From Zhongshania sp. (GTDB taxonomy: Bacteria; Pseudomonadota; Gammaproteobacteria; Pseudomonadales; Spongiibacteraceae): 63,171 bases of DNA. Below the pieces are notes generated by a model. That model was not told the DNA's origin. It was given only the letters and a program-made list of their open reading frames with translations, and did not search any database. How positions within the stretch are numbered: the first letter of the stretch is position 1; each line of letters opens with the position of its first letter. Of the stretch, positions 24,206 to 44,258 are shown in pieces. The stretch spans positions 1 through 63,171 of the forward strand of contig NZ_JARGNU010000018.1 of the NCBI RefSeq assembly GCF_029212375.1. Direction: 5' to 3'. The translations under genes were made by a program, and so were the position numbers.

Positions 24206-24686
24206 TGCTGTTTAAAACCCACAGAGTATCAGTGTCTTTAAAGTCTAGGTTTAAGCTGTCGCCGAATACGGACTGTAACAGCTTTTGAGGCGCAATATCG
24301 CATAGCGGACGCAGCACAAAGTCGCGCTGATGCATGCGTGGATGAGGTACGCAAAGCAATTCATTATTAATGCGCTGCTGGCCGTAGAGTAAGAGGTCGA
24401 GGTCGAGGGTGCGTGGCCCCCAGTGTAATTCGCGGCGGCGCTGATGCAGGGCTTCAATACCTTGCATGGCGAGCAGTAATTGCTCGGCCGTTAAGTCGGT
24501 GTCGATAGCGGCGGCGGCATTGACGTAGTTGTCTTGCTGGCCCGGCCCGACGGCTTGTGAACCGTAGAGTTTTGAGTTTTCAATGAATTGGCAGTTGGGC
24601 AGGGCTGCCAATTCATTGAGCGCGCTTAAAACGTGCTGCAGCGGATTTTCGAGATTGCTGCCCAGGCCAATATAGCAACGAATCAT
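24183..24686 (-). CDS. folK: Hydroxymethyldihydropterin pyrophosphokinase
   Basis: FolK pyrophosphorylates the pterin precursor of folate. The 167-residue protein has CYIGLGSNLENPLQHV at the N-terminus, QDNYVNAAAAIDT, and the signature RRELHWGPRTLDLDLLLYG with HPRMHQRDFVLRPL after it. Its ATG overlaps the pcnB stop (ATGA), and its 3' end overlaps the kinase gene, so pcnB-folK-kinase-panB form a tight operon. Confidence 0.96.
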   Translation of the reverse strand: MIRCYIGLGSNLENPLQHVLSALNELAALPNCQFIENSKLYGSQAVGPGQQDNYVNAAAAIDTDLTAEQLLLAMQGIEALHQRRRELHWGPRTLDLDLLLYGQQRINNELLCVPHPRMHQRDFVLRPLCDIAPQKLLQSVFGDSLNLDFKDTDTLWVLNSNDESQPR

Positions 24687-26062
24687 CGCGGTTTGCGAGG
24701 TCCGCGCCGGCGACGAGGGTTGCTGCGGGGCTTTTCGCTAGCAGGAACTTGGCTGAGCATGGCGCCGCGGGTGTCGACGTGGGCTTCTTGGAATGCCAGC
24801 CACCACTGTCCGAGTTCGGGTTCTATTTCGCCGGCTTGCTCGCGCAGTAGTAAAAAGTCGAAGCCGGCGCGAAAGTAGCGGTGCTCCAATAGTTGCTCAG
24901 GGCGCTTGCCGGAGCGACGGGTTAGGCGGCACTGCAGTTCCCAGATGTCGCGCATGGGCAGCGAGAAGCGCTTGGGTATGGCAACGGTTTGCTGTTGCTT
25001 ATGGAGCACCCGCTCCGCGGCTTGATGCAGTGCGGCGATTTCGGGTGCGCCAGATGCCATTATCTCTTGGTGAAGGTGTTTTACCATTGGCCACAAGATA
25101 ACTGCGTAGATAAAGGCTGGGGTAACGGGCTTGCCTTCGGCGATGCGGGCGTCGGTGTTAATCAGGCCCTGCTTGATAATTTCTTCTGCCGCAGGCTCTC
25201 GCTGGTTGAGCATTTTTTGGGTGGCGGGGAAGAGCGGTGCAAATAAGCCATAGCGCTGCATTAGGGCGTAGGTGTGCAGGCCTTGACCCGACATAAACAG
25301 CTTGATGACTTCGTCAAACATTCTTGCTGCGGCGATATCGCAGAGCAGCGGCGCAAGGCGCGTAAGTGGCTCTTCGCTGTGGCGTTCAATATCGAAGTCA
25401 AGTTTGGCGGCAAAGCGCACCACGCGCAGCATTCGTACCGGATCTTCTCGGTAGCGGGTCTCTGGATCGCCGATAATGCGGATAAGCTTGTTCTTGAGAT
25501 CTTGCATGCCGCCGACAAAGTCGTAAACACTGAAGTCGCGGCTAGAGTAATACAGCGCATTGATGGTGAGGTCGCGGCGTGCGGCATCCTCGTCAACGGA
25601 GCCGTAAACATTGTCTCTGGTCAGCATGCCCGATTCGGTTTGCGCGGAGTGCTTATTGCGCTGGGGGTTGCTGGCTGGCGCGTCGTGGCTGCCGCGGAAG
25701 GTGGTGACCTCGATAATTTCGCGGCCAAAGCGGACGTGAACAATACGAAAGCGTCGACCGATGATGCGGCTGTTGCGAAACACGCCGCGAACTTGTTCGG
25801 GAGTGGCGTCGGTGGCAATGTCAAAATCTTTGGGCTGGCCGCCAAGGAGTAGGTCGCGCACGCCGCCGCCAACCAAAAAGGCTTCGAAACCTTCTTCGTT
25901 GAGTCGGCGGATGACTTTCAGTGCCGCATCGCTGATGTGTTTGCGCGACACGCAGTGTTCGTCGCGGGGAATAATGGCCACTTGGTGTGCGGAGCCTTGG
26001 CTGGATTTGGAAAATTTGCCGGTTAGCTTTTTCCACAGCCCGGTAACGGAGCTTGATGTCAT
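24683..26062 (-). CDS. pcnB: Poly(A) polymerase I
   Basis: PcnB adds 3' poly(A) tails that promote RNA decay. The 459-residue protein has the nucleotidyltransferase motif FLVGGGVRDLLLGGQPKDFDIATDA (split around residues 60-85), RRLTINALYY-like RRDLTINALYYS, and EDPVRMLRVVRFAAKLDF, followed by a basic Arg-rich C-terminus (NPRRRRGPRKPR). This longer, basic-tailed form distinguishes it from the CCA-adding enzyme. It has no obvious Shine-Dalgarno. An extended -10 promoter lies 38-46 bp upstream. Confidence 0.95.
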   Translation of the reverse strand: MTSSSVTGLWKKLTGKFSKSSQGSAHQVAIIPRDEHCVSRKHISDAALKVIRRLNEEGFEAFLVGGGVRDLLLGGQPKDFDIATDATPEQVRGVFRNSRIIGRRFRIVHVRFGREIIEVTTFRGSHDAPASNPQRNKHSAQTESGMLTRDNVYGSVDEDAARRDLTINALYYSSRDFSVYDFVGGMQDLKNKLIRIIGDPETRYREDPVRMLRVVRFAAKLDFDIERHSEEPLTRLAPLLCDIAAARMFDEVIKLFMSGQGLHTYALMQRYGLFAPLFPATQKMLNQREPAAEEIIKQGLINTDARIAEGKPVTPAFIYAVILWPMVKHLHQEIMASGAPEIAALHQAAERVLHKQQQTVAIPKRFSLPMRDIWELQCRLTRRSGKRPEQLLEHRYFRAGFDFLLLREQAGEIEPELGQWWLAFQEAHVDTRGAMLSQVPASEKPRSNPRRRRGPRKPR

Positions 26063-26099: not shown

Positions 26100-26108
26100 A
26101 TTCTAGCA
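26100..26108 (-). promoter_or_regulatory. Extended -10 promoter of pcnB
   Basis: On the minus strand TGCTAGAAT gives an extended -10 (TG-n-TAGAAT) about 40 bp before the pcnB ATG. No strong -35 is seen, as is usual with an extended -10. It lies downstream of the RNA terminator at 26161, so pcnB need not depend on the RNA promoter. Confidence 0.5.
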
Positions 26109-26159
26109 CAGGGATTTAGGGTGTGCGGGAAATGCTCAGGGGGAATTTTCGGTGTTTCT

Positions 26160-26270
26160 AAAATGAAGAAGGGGAAAACAATGTCTTCCCCACCCAGGTC
26201 TCTTTGCTATTATATTATTATTATTGTTTCTCTTTTATTATTATTATTTTGTTTTCTTATTGTTGTTTGA
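26160..26270 (-). ncRNA. Candidate CrcZ-like Hfq-decoy small RNA
   Basis: Starting 12 nt past a sigma-54 -12 element, the predicted transcript is about 105-110 nt. Its first ~65 nt are A-rich triplets of the ARN type: AAC-AAC-AAT-AAG-AAA, then four AAT repeats plus AAA, then AGA-AAC and four AAT repeats. These give many overlapping AANAAYAA (CA) motifs, the class bound by the Hfq distal face. It ends in an intrinsic terminator (26161-26191). Pseudomonas CrcZ, a CbrAB/sigma-54-driven RNA that titrates Hfq and relieves catabolite repression, lies at this same position between cbrB and pcnB but is about 400 nt. No ORF with a ribosome binding site is present. Function is inferred from promoter, motif and synteny together. 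Confidence 0.8.
26161..26191 (-). terminator. Terminator of the candidate CrcZ-like RNA
   Basis: On the minus strand GGGGAAGAC (26191-26183) pairs with GTTTTCCCC (26179-26171), including one G-U, around an ATT triloop. A T-rich tail, TTCTTCATTT, follows. This defines the RNA 3' end well before pcnB. Confidence 0.75.
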
Positions 26271-26280
26271 CAGTAAAGAG

Positions 26281-26297
26281 AGCATATGCCGTGCCAA
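26281..26297 (-). promoter_or_regulatory. Sigma-54 promoter (-24/-12)
   Basis: On the minus strand TTGGCACG, four bases, then ATGCT match the RpoN consensus TTGGCACG-N4-TTGCW at all but one position, with GG-N10-GC spacing exactly kept. GG is at 26295-26294 and GC at 26283-26282, predicting a start at about 26270. It lies just downstream of cbrB, which encodes a GAFTGA-containing sigma-54 activator. Confidence 0.88.
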
Positions 26298-26370
26298 GTT
26301 ATGAAATTCGTTGTTTTTCAGTGTGTTAGGTATTTTCCCTGTTGTGGAAAGCCCTTACATATTTGTGAAC

Positions 26371-26419
26371 TGTTACCTTACTATACGCCCTTTGTTACAT
26401 TTCCTTGCTTGGGGTAACG
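26371..26419. promoter_or_regulatory. Putative activator-binding array upstream of the sigma-54 promoter
   Basis: Three half-sites lie between the cbrB stop and the promoter: TGTTACC at 26371-26377, TGTTACA at 26393-26399 and GGTAACG at 26413-26419. Core spacing is 22 and 20 bp, about two helical turns. They sit roughly 100-145 bp upstream of the predicted start, the usual place for enhancer sites of sigma-54 activators. I recall TGTTAC/GTAACA-type dyads for Pseudomonas CbrB but cannot verify it here. Confidence 0.6.
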
Positions 26420-26443: not shown

Positions 26444-27904
26444 TTAAGCATTGCTTCTAGTGGCTACCTTTTTGCGCGGAATTCCTAAGCGCTGACGACG
26501 TTCCCACAGGCATTTGCGGCTGACCCCAAGTTTTTGGGCAAGCTCGGTTTCGCTCATTGAGTCCTGATGTTCTAAAACAAAACGCTGGAAATAGTCCTCT
26601 AGCGACAAATCTTCGCTGGGATCATTATTGCTGCGGCTGGGTTTGCTGCGGCTGTCTTTGCGCTCTACGCCTGTGCTGCTATTGGTGGAGCGATTTGTGA
26701 ATTCACTGCCTCGGCCGCGAATTTGGCTGATATCGACAAGTTCTAAGTCGATATCAAGGAGCTCATTGTCTATTTCTTTGCTGTCGCAGAGTATGACTGC
26801 ACGCTCGATGGCATTTTCTAGCTCGCGAATATTGCCCGGCCATATATAGGTGGTGATGGCCTGAATCGCTTTGGGGCTAAAATGCATTAATGGTTTTTTC
26901 ATTTTCTCGCAGCGATGCTTAAGCAGGGTTTCGGCCAGCTCGAGAATGTCCTTGCCGCGCTCGCGCAGTGGCGGCAGCTCTAGCTTCATTACATTGATGC
27001 GGTAGTAAAGATCCTCTCGGAAGTGTCCGGCGTGGGCCATCTCTTTGAGGTCGCGGTGGGTCGCGCAGATCAATCTAACATTAACCTTGCTCGACTCTAC
27101 TGAGCCAATGCGGCGAATTTCATCTTCTTGTATAAACCGCAGTAGTCGCGCTTGGGCCTCTAAGGGCAGTTCGCCAATTTCGTCTAAGAATAAGGTGCCG
27201 CCATCGGCGGCTTCAATTAAACCGATCCGGCTGCTGTTAGCGCCGGTGAATGCGCCTTTTTCATAGCCAAACAGTTCAGATTCAATCAGTGACTCAGGTA
27301 TTGCCGCGCAGTTCACGCAGATGATGGGTTTGTTAACCCGTGTGCTTTGATTGTGAATAGCCCGCGCTACCAGTTCTTTACCGGTACCGGTTTCGCCGTG
27401 AACAAGGACGGTGGCATCGGTGGGCGCGGCGCGACGAATATGGTCGTAGAGTTGTTGCATGGCCTTGCAGCTGCCTATCATGCCGTTGGCGTCGGCAATT
27501 TGCTTGCGCTGGCTGCTGCTGGGCTCGGGGCTGCTACCGGCGGGGGGCTTTTCGCTGGCGGTGCTGTTAATAATGCGTTCTACAGTCTCGAGCATCTCGT
27601 CGTGGTCGAAGGGCTTGGCAATATAATCGATAGCGCCTTTTTTCATGGAGTCGACAGCTGATTTGAGGCTGGCGTAGCTGGTCATGATGAGTACCGGCGC
27701 GTCGGTTTTACTAATGAGGTCTGTGCCTGGAGCGCCGGGGAGCCGTAAGTCGCTAATAATCAGGGCGTAGTCGTTGACATTGTAGGTGCTTAGGGCCTTT
27801 TGAACAGAGTCGGCCTCGTCTACCTGATAGTCATTGCGTTCTAGCAGGCGACGTAGTGCGACGCGGATGACGTCTTCGTCTTCAACTAAAAGGATCTTGG
27901 GCAT
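26444..27904 (-). CDS. cbrB: Sigma-54-dependent response regulator CbrB
   Basis: The 486-residue protein has a receiver domain (ILLVEDEDVIRVALRRL, phospho-acceptor Asp in IISDLRLPG, KPFD), an AAA+ domain (Walker A GETGTGKE, the sigma-54-contacting GAFTGA, Walker B GTLFLDEIGELP) and a C-terminal Fis-type helix-turn-helix (ETELAQKLGVSRKCLWERRQRL). ATG 27904 is chosen over 27925 because GGAGA lies 6 nt upstream. It follows cbrA by 64 bp and precedes the sigma-54-driven RNA. In Pseudomonas CbrAB controls carbon and nitrogen source use. Confidence 0.92.
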   Translation of the reverse strand: MPKILLVEDEDVIRVALRRLLERNDYQVDEADSVQKALSTYNVNDYALIISDLRLPGAPGTDLISKTDAPVLIMTSYASLKSAVDSMKKGAIDYIAKPFDHDEMLETVERIINSTASEKPPAGSSPEPSSSQRKQIADANGMIGSCKAMQQLYDHIRRAAPTDATVLVHGETGTGKELVARAIHNQSTRVNKPIICVNCAAIPESLIESELFGYEKGAFTGANSSRIGLIEAADGGTLFLDEIGELPLEAQARLLRFIQEDEIRRIGSVESSKVNVRLICATHRDLKEMAHAGHFREDLYYRINVMKLELPPLRERGKDILELAETLLKHRCEKMKKPLMHFSPKAIQAITTYIWPGNIRELENAIERAVILCDSKEIDNELLDIDLELVDISQIRGRGSEFTNRSTNSSTGVERKDSRSKPSRSNNDPSEDLSLEDYFQRFVLEHQDSMSETELAQKLGVSRKCLWERRQRLGIPRKKVATRSNA

Positions 27905-27968
27905 AATTCTCTCCGTTGCTTGCATACGGCCAGCGCGTCGGCTTATTCAGCCGGACAACATAACGCGA

Positions 27969-30950
27969 TCAGCCGATTATTTCTAGGGTGGCCTTGGCCG
28001 CCTCGCTGTCGATCAGATTGAGATGGATATGTATTCGGGTGCCATTGCCGCCAAATTCGGGGACGGGGCTTTCAATGCTGATATCGCCGCCGAGATCGCC
28101 AATAATGCTGTACACCAGCGCCAAGCCAAGGCCAGTGCCTTTGCCTGGCTCTTTGGTAGTAAAGAAAGGTTCAAAGATTTGATCTTGCAGTTTTTCGTCG
28201 ATGCCAGTGCCGTGGTCAGTGACCATGATATGGGCTGAGTTGTCATCTCGCGTAGCGTCAATGGTGATCATGCTGTCTTCGGGGCTGGCGTCGCGGGCAT
28301 TCGATAGTAGGTTAATAAATACCTGCATCAAGCGCTGAGTATCACCGGCCACCACGATGTCGCTGGGGCAATTATTGTTGTAGTGAATATGGCGCGCCTG
28401 CTGATCTAGGCTGAGTAATTGCACTGCCTCCATTACGCAGTCGCGCACAGTGACCGCCTCAAAGGCTTGGGTGGGGTCTTCGCGGCCGGTGTGGGCAAAG
28501 TTGACCAAGCTGTGCACAATACTGCTGATGCGCTGGGTCTGTTTTACGATTTGCGAAGCCGCCTCTAAGGTGTCGGGGTTGTCGCTCTCAAAGCGCAAAT
28601 TCTGGGCAAGACAGGCGATACCCGTAACGGGATTGCCAATTTCGTGGGCGACACCCGCGGCAAGGCGGCCTATTGATGCTAGTCGTTCCTGATGGGTTAA
28701 CTCGTTTTCTAGCAGTTGGGTGTCGGTGATGTCTTCCACTACCACGATCAATTCGTCGCGGCCCAGCATTTGCGATTCAGTGCGGTGCAGGTTTAGCCAG
28801 CGCAGGCCTTTATTGGTTTCAACGCTAAATTTGCTGCGGTGTAAATCGCTGCTGGCCAAAAAACTGAGCAGGCAGTTTGCCCAGGGCTCGGGCAAGCCCG
28901 TTAATCGCGAGCCTGTAACGGTATTGGACTTTATTTTAGTAATGTCGGCCATGGTGGTATTCCATAGCAGTATCTCTTGGTCGCGGCCTAGTGCGCAGAC
29001 GCCAATGGGAAGGTCTTCCAGTGTTTGGCGGTGATAGCGACGCAGGCTATCTAAGTCTGCCGCTAGGCCGGTGAGATTGGTTTGATAGCGTTCTAAGCGC
29101 TCTTCAATGTAGGTAATGTCCTCACTGCTGCCGATGAGGTTGTCGGTATAGGGTAGGGCGCGGTCTATTACGCGGCGGGCACTGGATGGGCCGATGAGCG
29201 AAGATAAATTGACTTCAATGCGATCGCGGATTCGGCGCAGGGCGTATGGCCTCGTTTCTAATTCGTCGAGCTTTAGCTCATCGAGGGCGCGTTTAAATTC
29301 TTGGGCGGCGGCGCTGTCGCCCAAGACCTCTTGTAGGCGCAATCGGATTTCGCTGGCGTAATGCAAATTTAGGGTTTGGCGCGTGGGTCGGTTTAGGTCG
29401 TCGAGGGTGCACGCCTCGGCTGCGCGGCGCTCTTCGGGAGAGACATCGCTGAGCAGTGAAACAATAATAAAGACTAGGCCGTTTAACGCTAAGGATAGGC
29501 TTGTTACCACCACCCAAAACTGATCGTCACTTACGGGATAAATGTAAATATCTTTGAGGAAATTGGGTTGGCTGCCGGTGAACATCGGGACGACAAGGCC
29601 AATTGTCCACACTGTAAAACCGGCGCAGAGGCCGCCGATAAAACCGTTGCGATTGGCTCTGGGCCAATACAATACGGCCAGTACCCCAGGTAAAAACTGG
29701 AGGCAGCCACTGGCAGAGGTCATGGTTAAATTAGTCAGGCTCTGGGATTCGCCGATCAATTCATAAAAAACAAAACCAACGAGAATGATCACGCAGATTA
29801 AAAGCTGGCGGGTCATTAGCAGCCAGCGATAAATGTCGATGTTGCGACCTCTGGGCCGCAGCACTGGCAAGACTAAATGGTTTAAGCACATCGATGCTAA
29901 GGCGAGGGTGGTGATGATAATGGCACCGCTGGCTGCCGACAGGCCGCCGAGGTAGATCAATATCGTTAGCCATGGTTTGCCGATTTCCAACGACAAGCCC
30001 AGGGCATAGTAGTCGGCGGGAAGGCTGAGCTCGCTAGCGCTCCCTGCCCACAGAATCGGCAGGATGGGAAGGCTCATTATTAGTAGGAATAAAGGCAGCC
30101 CCCAGCTCGCTGTGGCTAGGTTTTTACTGCTGGGGTTTTCTGCGAACAGCATGTGAAATATATGCGGCATGCACACCGCAGCGGCAAAAAACATAATAAG
30201 CATCAAGCGGTTCACATCGCCAGCTTGGGGTTCGTTAAGGGGCGCTAAGGTCTCTGGTTTGCTGTCTAGCCAAACCTGTAAACCCTCAAAGCTGCCAAAC
30301 ACGACGTAAGTGCTGATAATGCCAATGAGCAGCACGGCAAAGACTTTCACCAAGGATTCAAAGGCTAGCGCGGTGACGAGGCCGCGATGGCTATCTTTTG
30401 ACGCGAGGTTGCGCGAGCCAAATAGAATGGTAAATACCGTAATAATGAGGCAAAACAGAAAGCCGGTGAGGTTTCGGTAATCACCGCTGCCGCTGTCAAT
30501 TGAACGGCCGAGGCTTAAAATGAGGGTGGATTCTGACACTGTCTGAATTTGTATGGCGAGCAGTGGCCATACAGCGACCGCCGTAAACACGGTGACTAGC
30601 GAACCTACCCAGGAGCTGCGAAAGCGAAAGCTAAGTAAGTCGGCCAGAGAGTTCAGTCGGTAGCTTTTGCAGATCCGGTGCAGTGGTGCCAGTAGTATGG
30701 GCAGTAAAATCATCGCAGCGGAGAGGCCAATATAGTAATTCAAAAAACTGTAGCCGTAGTGCTGCGCAAAACCTACCGCGCCGTACACCGCGAAACCACT
30801 TGCGTAAATGCCCAGCGACAAAACATAGGTGGCGGGATGGTTGATCAGCTTGGCAGGGAGAAGTTGGCGCTCGGCGGCATAGGCGATGGCAAAAAGCAGC
30901 AGCAGGTAGCTGATACCAATAAATAACAGGGTATTGATATCAAAGATCAT
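27969..30950 (-). CDS. cbrA: Sensor histidine kinase CbrA with sodium/solute symporter domain
   Basis: The 993-residue protein begins with an SSS-family transporter domain of about 13 membrane segments (residues ~1-500). A STAC-like linker (EIRLRLQEVLGDSAAAQEF) and a PAS domain (ETLPIGV-like EDLPIGVCALGRDQEILLWNT) follow. The kinase core has GVAHEIGNPVTGI with the phospho-His near residue 767, an N-box INLLSNARDASPED, and G-boxes DHGTGIDEK and GKGTGLGLALVYS. ATG 30950 overlaps the stop of the small ORF cbrX (ATGATCTTTGA), as in Pseudomonas; the frame is open to 30983 but lacks a better start. It should autophosphorylate and pass phosphate to CbrB. Whether it transports a solute (histidine in Pseudomonas) is unknown here. 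Confidence 0.92.
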   Translation of the reverse strand: MIFDINTLLFIGISYLLLLFAIAYAAERQLLPAKLINHPATYVLSLGIYASGFAVYGAVGFAQHYGYSFLNYYIGLSAAMILLPILLAPLHRICKSYRLNSLADLLSFRFRSSWVGSLVTVFTAVAVWPLLAIQIQTVSESTLILSLGRSIDSGSGDYRNLTGFLFCLIITVFTILFGSRNLASKDSHRGLVTALAFESLVKVFAVLLIGIISTYVVFGSFEGLQVWLDSKPETLAPLNEPQAGDVNRLMLIMFFAAAVCMPHIFHMLFAENPSSKNLATASWGLPLFLLIMSLPILPILWAGSASELSLPADYYALGLSLEIGKPWLTILIYLGGLSAASGAIIITTLALASMCLNHLVLPVLRPRGRNIDIYRWLLMTRQLLICVIILVGFVFYELIGESQSLTNLTMTSASGCLQFLPGVLAVLYWPRANRNGFIGGLCAGFTVWTIGLVVPMFTGSQPNFLKDIYIYPVSDDQFWVVVTSLSLALNGLVFIIVSLLSDVSPEERRAAEACTLDDLNRPTRQTLNLHYASEIRLRLQEVLGDSAAAQEFKRALDELKLDELETRPYALRRIRDRIEVNLSSLIGPSSARRVIDRALPYTDNLIGSSEDITYIEERLERYQTNLTGLAADLDSLRRYHRQTLEDLPIGVCALGRDQEILLWNTTMADITKIKSNTVTGSRLTGLPEPWANCLLSFLASSDLHRSKFSVETNKGLRWLNLHRTESQMLGRDELIVVVEDITDTQLLENELTHQERLASIGRLAAGVAHEIGNPVTGIACLAQNLRFESDNPDTLEAASQIVKQTQRISSIVHSLVNFAHTGREDPTQAFEAVTVRDCVMEAVQLLSLDQQARHIHYNNNCPSDIVVAGDTQRLMQVFINLLSNARDASPEDSMITIDATRDDNSAHIMVTDHGTGIDEKLQDQIFEPFFTTKEPGKGTGLGLALVYSIIGDLGGDISIESPVPEFGGNGTRIHIHLNLIDSEAAKATLEIIG

Positions 30951-31116
30951 TGCGGCGTTGCTGACGAAGGCTAAAAAACACAAAAAGAATTATGGCTAGC
31001 CACACCAAATGGTGGCGATACCAGAGATTGCTACCCGTGTAGAGCCAGCGGCCCAAGCTGGGCGCGTAAACAAAAGCAAAGGTAACTAATAAGAGCAGGG
31101 GAGAATGAATTTGCAT
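30940..31116 (-). CDS. cbrX: Small membrane protein CbrX
   Basis: A 58-codon ORF (MQIHSPLLLLVTFAFVYAP... ending ...SLRQQRRNDL) encodes two hydrophobic segments, one near residues 5-18 and one near 36-50, with a basic tail. Its TGA lies inside the first codons of cbrA, an 11-base overlap (ATGATCTTTGA). As I recall, Pseudomonas has an equivalent small ORF, cbrX, translationally coupled to cbrA. No strong Shine-Dalgarno is seen for its ATG. Function is unknown beyond likely coupling. Confidence 0.75.
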   Translation of the reverse strand: MQIHSPLLLLVTFAFVYAPSLGRWLYTGSNLWYRHHLVWLAIILFVFFSLRQQRRNDL

Positions 31117-41555: not shown

Positions 41556-44258
41556 TTAGTTTCGTGCCGTGGTTGATACACTGCGAGGCTGAAACGTAGT
41601 AAGCCCTCTCAGCATCCAGACCACGCCAGCGTATATTTGCGGTATTGGTTTTGGCGCATTAGTAAGTAATCTATTATAGCCGCGTCCGGCTGCGCCAATT
41701 ACTTGACCCATGCTAATCGCAGGGACATCCTCGTCGTAAGCTTCTTTCCAATTTACCCACGTATCAGCTTTGGCGAAGGTGCATTGCACATAGTCGATGG
41801 TTTGCTGAATCGACAGGGGTGGTAAGCGCGTGCCGACAACTCCGTTGCTGGCGTAAACGATATTTAGCGGAAAAATGAACTCTTCATTGGCGCGGCGCAA
41901 GGCCACGTTCAGTTCCGTTTGGTTCTGAAGTAGTTGGCAGTCGGCTATTTCTAAGCGTAAACCGTCAAAGGAAAAATCACGTACTTTTGCTTGAATGCGG
42001 TGCCCGCTGTGCAAAATCAAACTAACGGGGATAGATACCTCTACCCGAGGGGCTGTGCGCACTTGCTTGGCTTCGCCACCAACTGCCGCGGCGGCGCCTA
42101 GAATTAGCATGTTATAAAAAGTCCATGTCAGGTTAATAATAACAGCCGAAATTTCTTCGCTCGGTCCTGATACTATTCTGACAATCCCCCAGATAACGCC
42201 GGCAACGTTTAATAACACTAGGGTAATATAGGGTTTTGATATTACCCAATCGAAATAATCCCGCTCTATTACGCCGCCCTTGGCAGTGACATTAAATGTG
42301 CCCTTATGCGGCGCAAAAAGTGCGACGGTTGTGGGTCTGGCAACGTACCAAGCCAATACCGACTCATAAACTTCGCCCCAAAAAGAATAGCGATACTTTC
42401 CTTGAAGAATTGAGTTGACCGATGCGGCATGAACCATGTGCGGCACCACATACATTAGTAATACCAGCGCGGGGGCGTAAATAATGTACGTATGCAACAG
42501 CAAGAATGCGAGGGGCGCAGTAAGAAAGATAAGCCGTGGAACGCCGGATAAAAAATGTAGCATGGCATTGAAATAGCACAGCCTTTGTTGCCAGCGCAGC
42601 CCTCGCCCAGTGAGCGGGTTGTCTATACGTAAAATCTGAGCCATGCCTCGCGCCCAGCGTATGCGCTGGCCAATATGGGCAGACAGGGTTTCAGTGGCCA
42701 GTCCAGCGGAAATGGGTGCGCTGAGGTAGGCCGAGCGGTAACCGCGGCGATGCAGGCGCAGTGAGGTGTGGGCGTCTTCGGTAACCGTTTCCACCGCAAT
42801 CCCGCCTACTTCTTCAAGCGGCTTACGGCGCAAAATTGCGCAGGAGCCGCAAAAGAATGTGCCCCCCCAGAGGTCGTTACCATCTTGAATTAGACCGTAG
42901 AATAAGTTGCCTTCGTTGGGAATTTTTCTAAAGTTGGCCAAATTTCGTTCAAAAGGATCTGGTGAATAAAAATGGTGGGGGGTTTGTACTAGGGCTAATT
43001 GGGGGTCCTTCAATAACCACCCCATTGTTAATTGGAAAAAGGCCCTAGTCGGTATGTGGTCGCAATCAAAAATAGCGACATATTCGGCGTTGGTTTTGGT
43101 AAGCGCGTAATTAATATTCCCCGCTTTGGCATGGTTGTTGTGCGGTCGGCGAATATAATTCACGTTTACTTCGGCGGCGAAATCTCGAAAACTGTCACGC
43201 TTTCCGTCGTCAAGGATATGGATGTTAAGTTTATGTTGGGGCCAATCTATGCCCAAACTTGCATACACAGTGGCTTTGACAACATCCAAATCTTCGTTGT
43301 AGGTAGGAATAAAGAGATCGATTGTTGGCCACGTTTCTGGGTCGTCGGGGAGCTGCTGTGGCGTTCGTTGCAAAGGCCAGATATTTTGAAAATAGCCCAA
43401 TAATAATACTAGCCAAGCATAAAGCTCTGCGCTTAGTAATACTAAGCCTAAAATGAGCCCTGTAGTGCTGTCCCAATTCAGCGTGTTTGTGGTTCGCCAC
43501 CAGATATAGCGGGTTGAAACGACTAGCGACAGCACAATGAGTAGCATACTTGAAAAACGTCCCGGCATGCGCTGCAGGGCTCGTGCCATTAAATATAGTG
43601 CGCACACAAAAATAGCCTGAGCTTCAAGGCTGAAGGGAACAGTGATGCAAAGCAGGCTTAACAAGACAATAAGCAGCATGAGTAACTTGTCGCGCCATTG
43701 CATATTGTGCCAAAAGCTGGCCGCAAACTTGTTGTTTAAGTCGGCGTTAACCACCGCCTCTGTTTGGCGCTCATTAGCCTGTTGCCCCGAATCTAGCAGG
43801 GGCTTAAACCAGCCAAGAGACAGCGTCAATAGCTTTTGCGAGCGTTTGTTAACTCGGCGAATAGCACTGGCGGCGCCCTTTGCTGAGCGGCGCGCGGAGT
43901 ATGGTCTAATAAATAGTAACCAAAACAGCTGCACCACGGCACGCAGGGGGTCACCAATTCGAGGGCGGCTCAAATCAATATGCGGGAATAAATATTGTAG
44001 TAAACGCCAACTTTCGATGCCGGCAATGCGGGGCTTTAAGAATGTGAGTGCAAAGAGTAGCCATACGGTGACCAATACCTTGCCCGTTAAAGAGTAGCCG
44101 CCTGCGCCTTTTAGGCAGTTATATTGATGGTGCAATTCATTTTGCAGCCAAGGTTTAAAGAGCGGTGCTATTAATATTGCCCGCTGGGTGATGATGCCGC
44201 GTCGCCGGCGGAGAGCCTCCCTCACTCGGTTGCCTGCCGCAGCTGATTTGTACACCAC
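41556..44258 (-). CDS. bcsA: Cellulose synthase catalytic subunit BcsA (GT2 + PilZ)
   Basis: BcsA polymerises UDP-glucose into beta-1,4-glucan across the inner membrane. The 900-residue protein has an N-terminal cytoplasmic/membrane extension of the E. coli type. Its GT2 core has the D,D,D,QxxRW motifs: HILDDGKR near 348, FDCDH near 399, VTEDAH near 491 and QRIRW near 530. The C-terminal PilZ domain carries the c-di-GMP motifs RTAPR near 736 and DFSFDG. It should therefore be activated by c-di-GMP. The start is GTG and overlaps bcsQ by 37 bp. Confidence 0.96.
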   Translation of the reverse strand: MVYKSAAAGNRVREALRRRRGIITQRAILIAPLFKPWLQNELHHQYNCLKGAGGYSLTGKVLVTVWLLFALTFLKPRIAGIESWRLLQYLFPHIDLSRPRIGDPLRAVVQLFWLLFIRPYSARRSAKGAASAIRRVNKRSQKLLTLSLGWFKPLLDSGQQANERQTEAVVNADLNNKFAASFWHNMQWRDKLLMLLIVLLSLLCITVPFSLEAQAIFVCALYLMARALQRMPGRFSSMLLIVLSLVVSTRYIWWRTTNTLNWDSTTGLILGLVLLSAELYAWLVLLLGYFQNIWPLQRTPQQLPDDPETWPTIDLFIPTYNEDLDVVKATVYASLGIDWPQHKLNIHILDDGKRDSFRDFAAEVNVNYIRRPHNNHAKAGNINYALTKTNAEYVAIFDCDHIPTRAFFQLTMGWLLKDPQLALVQTPHHFYSPDPFERNLANFRKIPNEGNLFYGLIQDGNDLWGGTFFCGSCAILRRKPLEEVGGIAVETVTEDAHTSLRLHRRGYRSAYLSAPISAGLATETLSAHIGQRIRWARGMAQILRIDNPLTGRGLRWQQRLCYFNAMLHFLSGVPRLIFLTAPLAFLLLHTYIIYAPALVLLMYVVPHMVHAASVNSILQGKYRYSFWGEVYESVLAWYVARPTTVALFAPHKGTFNVTAKGGVIERDYFDWVISKPYITLVLLNVAGVIWGIVRIVSGPSEEISAVIINLTWTFYNMLILGAAAAVGGEAKQVRTAPRVEVSIPVSLILHSGHRIQAKVRDFSFDGLRLEIADCQLLQNQTELNVALRRANEEFIFPLNIVYASNGVVGTRLPPLSIQQTIDYVQCTFAKADTWVNWKEAYDEDVPAISMGQVIGAAGRGYNRLLTNAPKPIPQIYAGVVWMLRGLTTFQPRSVSTTARN

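Follow-up and report, generated by a model that had tools for sequence, protein, structure and literature searches.

The gap between cbrB and pcnB on the minus strand of a Zhongshania contig (NZ_JARGNU010000018.1, positions 1 to 63,171; this whole stretch of 63,171 nt is the window) raises the question of what kind of element it holds and how this element is related to CrcZ, the RNA found at the same location in Pseudomonas, which titrates the RNA-binding protein Hfq and in this way relieves carbon catabolite repression. An earlier note had placed a compact, CrcZ-like RNA gene in this gap, and this position is borne out by the domains encoded in the window and by all 22 loci of the family. To judge from its sequence, the element is a real, conserved RNA gene of about 100 bases that occurs in marine bacteria beyond the Pseudomonas family. 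The explanation favored here, with a probability of about 0.8, is that the RNA is a short CrcZ orthologue of about 100-110 nt, activated by CbrB and titrating Hfq(-Crc).

Read along the minus strand, the locus comprises a cbrA-like sensor kinase gene (27969-30983; 1004 aa from a predicted start codon; HisKA, HATPase_c and PAS matches), cbrB, which encodes a sigma-54 dependent response regulator (26444-27925; 493 aa; Response_reg and Sigma54_activat), the predicted non-coding RNA (26160-26270) and the poly(A) polymerase gene pcnB (24683-26062; TIGR01942 above its cut-off). Compared with the Pseudomonadaceae genome G281, the CbrA-like protein shows 46.7% identity across 980 aa to the product of the gene preceding cbrB, and CbrB is 61% identical to its counterpart. 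CbrB has the receiver and the sigma-54 activation domain by which it is recognized, and its gene adjoins the cbrA-like one. In CbrA, a histidine kinase is fused to an SLC5 transporter domain; the kinase domains are found here, and Pfam gave no SLC5/SSF match at E up to 1. The genome also encodes Hfq and RpoN, both above their family cut-offs. The cbrB-pcnB gap holds a CrcZ-type unit composed of boxes, a weak IHF-like site, a promoter, ARN blocks and a terminator. The anatomy is larger than first described, as the CbrB-type boxes and the IHF-like site have been added upstream.

The sigma-54 promoter of the GG-N10-GC type that had been reported, TGGCACGGCATATGCT, was found again at 26296-26281 on the minus strand (GG at 26295-26294, GC at 26283-26282), and its class is conserved in relatives. 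With the start placed 12 nt past the -12 element, the reanalyzed promoter gives the same predicted +1 as before, near 26270. Counting both strands, the window contains three sequences of the TGGCACGGCATATGCT promoter form. Two other TGGCAC-N6-TGC sigma-54-like sites lie on the minus strand, at 43588 and 1290. Upstream of the promoter there are three CbrB-type boxes (26372-26418, minus strand), GTTAC at 26418-26414 and GTAAC at both 26398-26394 and 26376-26372, which sit -122, -102 and -80 from TGGCAC; three boxes occur at all 22 family loci, at -122/-123, -102 to -104 and -80 to -82. For crcZ and crcY of P. putida, one study describes a forward CbrB subsite (TGTTAC) and two reverse ones, with an IHF site separating them from the sigma-54 promoter, and the order of the boxes in the window is the same as that of F1, R1 and R2 in this text (PMC6296734). 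The box spacings of 20 and 22 bp are common to the window and G281. An imperfect IHF-like site (26318-26328, minus strand) matches a relaxed regular expression for the IHF consensus, and the pattern is found at -32 in 20 of the 22 family loci. At the sequence level, the locus has the sigma-54 promoter with upstream CbrB-type boxes that is expected of a CrcZ gene, and transcription would be expected to depend on CbrB, RpoN and IHF.

The body of the RNA carries the blocks expected of an Hfq ligand. The description of this tract as ARN-rich, with Hfq-type motifs, stands, but it is not near-continuous as had been proposed: three blocks are split by short non-ARN stretches. On the minus strand, block 1 (26253-26267) has five triplets, block 2 (26231-26248) six, and block 3 (26214-26234) seven, the last overlapping block 2 by 4 nt in a different phase; counted without overlap, the three blocks comprise 16 triplets. 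Over both strands of the window there are eight ARN runs of at least five triplets, three of them within the RNA, and three AAN runs of that length, all within the RNA. To allow for the A-rich composition, every RNA body was compared with shuffled versions of its own sequence. The window RNA has 16 triplets in runs of at least four, where 500 dinucleotide shuffles average 5.4 (p 0.002), and the same test gave p ≤ 0.042 at all 22 family loci and ≤ 0.01 at 19 of them. Repeats of n ≥ 4, as expected of CrcZ, form three blocks in 21 of the 22 loci and two blocks in the other.

The RNA ends in the tail GACCTGGGTGGGG... (26160-26201, minus strand), which contains the intrinsic terminator already noted, a stem-loop at 26191-26171 with a T-rich end reaching to about 26160. 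Three terminator-like sites were found in 701 bases, two of them the RNA's own, where shuffles gave 1.0 ± 1.1. Taken as a whole, the RNA folds no better than its composition predicts (z -1.54), and the pairing of the stem has no covariation support because the stem hardly varies. A coding origin of the RNA was considered and dropped for want of a conserved start codon, ATG being present at scattered positions in 12 RNAs of the 22 in the family.

Conservation within the Spongiibacteraceae is strong. PcnB was found in all 21 family genomes, at 22 loci since one genome has two; cbrB adjoins the pcnB gap at every one, the contents of the gaps are alike, and boxes, promoter, ARN blocks and tail are kept throughout (the alignment A1 comprises 21 of the 22 loci and omits L025, the second locus of one genome). 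The earlier note had named two changes as arguments against a functional RNA, a tract that is not conserved and a decaying promoter; neither was seen among these relatives. The mean majority identity over the 22 loci is highest in the tail (0.95; 29 of 41 columns invariant), followed by the sigma-54 promoter (0.86), the ARN region (0.83), the CbrB boxes (0.78), the IHF stretch (0.71) and the pcnB promoter stretch (0.70), with 0.39-0.64 in the remaining spacers and leader. The motif GACCTGGRT (26201-26192 in the window, minus strand), which is not part of the strongest stretch of the stem, hardly varies within the family and is also present in the tails of several other families; its conservation exceeds what a terminator needs.

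To follow the RNA beyond the family, a covariance model (R1) was built from 21 family sequences and matches were counted at E ≤ 0.01. The model matches the window at 26160-26298 with 157 bits, its training set including the window sequence, and at no other place in the genome. Among 390 genomes drawn evenly from the order, 108 were matched (94 of the 351 of good quality), and 18 of these 108 belong to the window's family. R1 leans to the short form: with a Crc identity of 85% or more as the mark of Pseudomonadaceae, 17 genomes were recognized, and it matched only G281 among them. In a class-wide draw, 2 of 369 genomes were matched, the window's own and G474, and the match in G474 lies near neither cbrB nor pcnB. 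The view that the element is a coding remnant, or intergenic DNA that is A-rich by chance, has in its favor that A-rich DNA yields some ARN triplets by chance, as the shuffle mean given above illustrates. Conservation and synteny through the order contradict it, as do the single match besides the own genome in the class-wide draw, away from both genes, and the lack of a conserved start codon; the probability of this explanation is negligible.

Of the matched loci in the order outside the family, 59 were fetched (40 + 19), and cbrB and pcnB both flank 49 of them. One flanking gene was seen at eight: five of these (L070, L080, L089, L100 and L279) sit at contig ends, L101 has no pcnB in the fetched stretch, and in L093 and L094, both of family f8, the RNA precedes pcnB with cbrB not found in the approximately 2.3 kb upstream. 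In L094, a gene that by eye resembles a TPR/retropepsin-like one occupies the usual place of cbrB. Neither gene was present at the two remaining loci, L068 and L095. The units there consist of promoter, ARN blocks and terminator (L068:2360-2497 and L095:2440-2576); one is downstream of an RND-transporter-like gene and one adjoins a ferrochelatase-like gene, both named by eye.

An alternative to a separate RNA is that the element acts as a pcnB leader or attenuator. In favor of this, it precedes pcnB on the same strand, and read-through is possible. However, the terminator stem closes the RNA, and only then does an extended -10-like element precede pcnB (TGTGCTAGAAT, 26100-26110, minus strand), which was read from the sequence, is also found in relatives and went unreported by a sigma-70 scan; it is probably pcnB's own separate promoter. 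The gap between tail and pcnB also varies in length and sequence among relatives, and the two orphan copies are away from pcnB. A leader is accordingly a very improbable reading, and a separate RNA is retained.

The tail alone proved specific. A tail-only pattern without protein information was searched in 84,980 species genomes and matched 89 stretches, 80 of which were listed as loci. Among these 80, 72 lie between cbrB and pcnB, three adjoin only pcnB and three only cbrB, so that 78 adjoin one or both genes; the other two, in Kallipyga and another member of the Bacillota, are near neither. Viral contigs gave zero matches to the pattern. Named records include Zhongshania, Spongiibacter, Litorivivens, Dasania, Haliea, Halioglobus and Luminiphilus, and among the loci listed the closest named PcnB to that of the window is from Zhongshania antarctica (92%). 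One record (L129), a metagenome-assembled genome titled Verrucomicrobiaceae, carries cbrB, the RNA's tail and pcnB, and is therefore probably mislabelled. Such specificity, together with an identity and a number of invariant columns, including bases outside the stem, that go beyond terminator needs, might indicate that the near-invariant tail (GACCTGGRTGGGGAAG...) is the functional part, for example a base-pairing seed or a protein site, and that the ARN blocks only load Hfq, as they would in an ordinary trans-acting sRNA. This is improbable in view of other families, where tails vary or differ (L090, L098, L265, L083 and L097) and ARN blocks and promoter persist.

Predicted lengths of the RNA were taken by script from the predicted start to the end of the stem, and the values for L062 (388 nt), L063 (426 nt) and L088 (293 nt) and for all rows without a T-tail call were set aside. 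The shortest forms are those of families f47 (74-85 nt, two tandem units), f14 (73-141 nt, two or three units per gap) and f40 (Halieaceae type; 79-84 nt, two blocks), followed by f1 (98-103 nt), f11 (107 and 135 nt), f5 (208 nt), f8 (210-213 nt), f16 (251-400 nt), f2 (349 nt) and f34 (357-360 nt); the gap RNA of G281, of the long CrcZ type, measures 365 nt. In the tandem loci L063, L064, L065, L071, L078 and L079, there is a separate box set for every unit. Three gaps of the Halieaceae type (L082, L085 and L087) have a second ARN-plus-tail unit downstream without a visible sigma-54 promoter, which may use another promoter or read-through.

The comparison with the Rfam CrcZ model (RF01675), which the earlier note had suggested, did not place the RNA in that family: it scores 18.3 bits versus a cut-off of 95 (E 0.01, 701-base search), and a scan of the window gave no CrcZ match at gathering level. 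Membership was rejected on this score and on length, about 100-110 nt being predicted where CrcZ is near 400 nt. The score climbs with length, from the window RNA to f8 (45-49 bits), f34 (66) and f2 (102.5, above the cut-off). Among 14 further loci, six reached 22-27.5 bits and eight fell short of E 0.1; weak RF01675 matches are also found elsewhere in the genome, and low-score matches in 9 of 14 control genomes. A PcnB tree joins the long forms of f2, f8 and f21 (fork 82/81), with an arbitrary root, 16 of 59 forks open, and length labels that carry the terminator errors of the script. The earlier description as a compact CrcZ-like RNA holds for position, promoter class, ARN blocks and short length. 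Its term "analogue" is better replaced by "short orthologue", because the RNA is in the same place, has the box spacing of G281 and belongs to a length series that extends up to 365 nt.

The genome encodes two relatives of Crc, L026 and L028. The former is 41.6% identical to P. aeruginosa Crc, has intact nuclease residues, and its best PDB match is the putative exodeoxyribonuclease 2jc5, ranked before Crc. The latter is 40.7% identical to Crc and lies between rph and pyrE (NCBIfam), as does its counterpart in the relative G014 and in G281, whose Crc and the P. aeruginosa protein share 87% identity; in another relative, G001, the Crc-like gene adjoins pyrE, and the fetched stretch showed no rph. 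In L028, three of the four positions taken as catalytic, E35, D148 and D245, are changed and N150 is kept, with the active relative L026 as reference. The ExoIII fold, the loss of nuclease residues and the rph-pyrE synteny by which Crc is recognized are all found in L028, for which the NCBIfam name would be exodeoxyribonuclease III. Among 45 Crc-like rows from 33 genomes, a set outside which L028 falls, 28 have lost at least two of the four catalytic residues and kept K139-R140-R141. L028 keeps K135, K139, R140, R141 and R162 among the contacts of Crc with RNA or Hfq and differs at R138, K155, W161, R196, R229 and R230; these contacts are listed for P. aeruginosa in the available part of PMC6422490, according to which R140E abolishes repression. 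Two earlier ideas were given up: that Crc is absent and L026 its sole relative, which was overturned by L028 between rph and pyrE, and that long RNAs go with Crc and short RNAs without it, which was dropped in view of second paralogues in relatives and of L028 itself.

By its anatomy, the RNA should work like CrcZ. CbrB bound at the three upstream boxes would switch on the sigma-54 promoter; each of the three ARN blocks could then occupy the distal face of a separate Hfq hexamer, and Crc would stabilize the Hfq-RNA complex. On poor carbon, the presumed signal, the RNA might sequester as many as three Hfq(-Crc) units and relieve Hfq-mediated repression of the genes so freed. Published work on CrcZ offers a parallel, in that a fragment of the first 151 nt, which includes three A-rich stretches, gives three shifted bands with Hfq, binding that needs the distal-face residue Y25 (PMC4063720).

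The candidate targets were approached through the start sites of 717 ORFs (-30 to +12, simple start calls, 838,518 bases or 22% of the own genome). ARNx4 occurs at 10 of 717, which is no excess over the 14.8 ± 3.1 of the shuffles, and at 5 of 715 control regions taken upstream; ARNx5 occurs once versus 2.2, and AANAANAA 20 times versus 22.7. AAYAAYAA was found at 9 of 717, versus 4.6 ± 2.1 in shuffles and 3 of 715 upstream. One further pattern, for a very long motif, had zero matches in the own genome and is too strict to inform. The test has power, because the positive control G281 (400,000 bases, 340 ORFs) is enriched both for ARNx4 (16 of 340, versus 3.5 ± 1.7 in shuffles and 2 of 339 upstream) and for AAYAAYAA (6 of 340, versus 1.2 and 1 of 339). 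The enrichment that a Pseudomonas-like regulon would show is missing despite a working control, which counts against such a role; the Zhongshania regulon would be smaller, rely on shorter motifs or work differently. In this sense, the RNA might be a general, CbrAB-controlled Hfq sponge that lowers free Hfq and so tunes sRNA networks, instead of releasing a set of catabolic mRNAs with ARN at their start sites. That a strongly conserved decoy lacks an ARNx4 excess speaks for such a sponge. Yet the test relies on simple start calls in 22% of the genome, AAYAAYAA exceeds both the shuffles and the upstream controls (9 at starts versus 3 upstream), and a Crc-like protein is retained, which makes the sponge rather unlikely beside a short CrcZ orthologue acting on Hfq(-Crc).

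A broader and more tentative proposal, which we consider possible though doubtful, is that the RNAs form an undescribed order-wide family, in which the number of ARN blocks and of separately promoted tandem units sets the decoy dose. In Zhongshania the RNA would mainly be a CbrAB-controlled sponge that adjusts the level of free Hfq, the near-invariant tail would have a second function, and the long CrcZ would be one branch and not the model.

In the parts of the literature available, the CbrAB system with CrcZ has been called exclusive to Pseudomonas and Azotobacter in a review (PMC8871633), and CbrAB exclusive to pseudomonads in a research paper (PMC6296734). CrcZ and Halomonas co-occur in some publications, as far as their accessible text goes, and the available part of a mesopelagic metatranscriptome study reports CbrA-CbrB transcripts with the host not named (PMC5073097). 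No publication linking CrcZ with Marinobacter or Cellvibrio was found in a search that covered few subscription journals; for this reason, it is a fair guess that the compact RNA is undescribed. According to the genomes, many further families of the order have the CbrAB-CrcZ circuit, with RNAs from about 80 nt and tandem arrays. The natural length series can address the number of Hfq sites required in a decoy, makes it possible to follow the evolution of CrcZ and provides minimal RNAs for structural work. That a decoy is conserved and yet has no obvious set of targets at start sites poses a testable question on what such RNAs regulate.

Compared with known systems, the RNA shares with CrcZ of Pseudomonas (RF01675) its cbrB-pcnB location, sigma-54 promoter, forward-reverse-reverse boxes, ARN repeats of at least four and intrinsic terminator. 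Unlike CrcZ, which according to the available text has 407 nt and six ARN repeats of n ≥ 4 (PMC4063720), it has about 100 nt and three blocks, as well as a different, near-invariant tail and a low Rfam score. The presence of several decoys of the same kind per genome, as in CrcY and CrcX, the CbrB-dependent decoys of Pseudomonas and Azotobacter, is paralleled by the tandem units of relatives and the two orphans; unlike CrcY and CrcX, compared by description only, the extra units of relatives are mostly tandem in the same gap. RNAs of the RsmY/RsmZ and CsrB type bind RsmA/CsrA via GGA motifs. With these the RNA has in common that repeated protein-binding motifs would titrate a post-transcriptional regulator, a parallel drawn in the accessible part of PMC4063720, and it differs from them in that its motifs are ARN for Hfq and not GGA for RsmA/CsrA.
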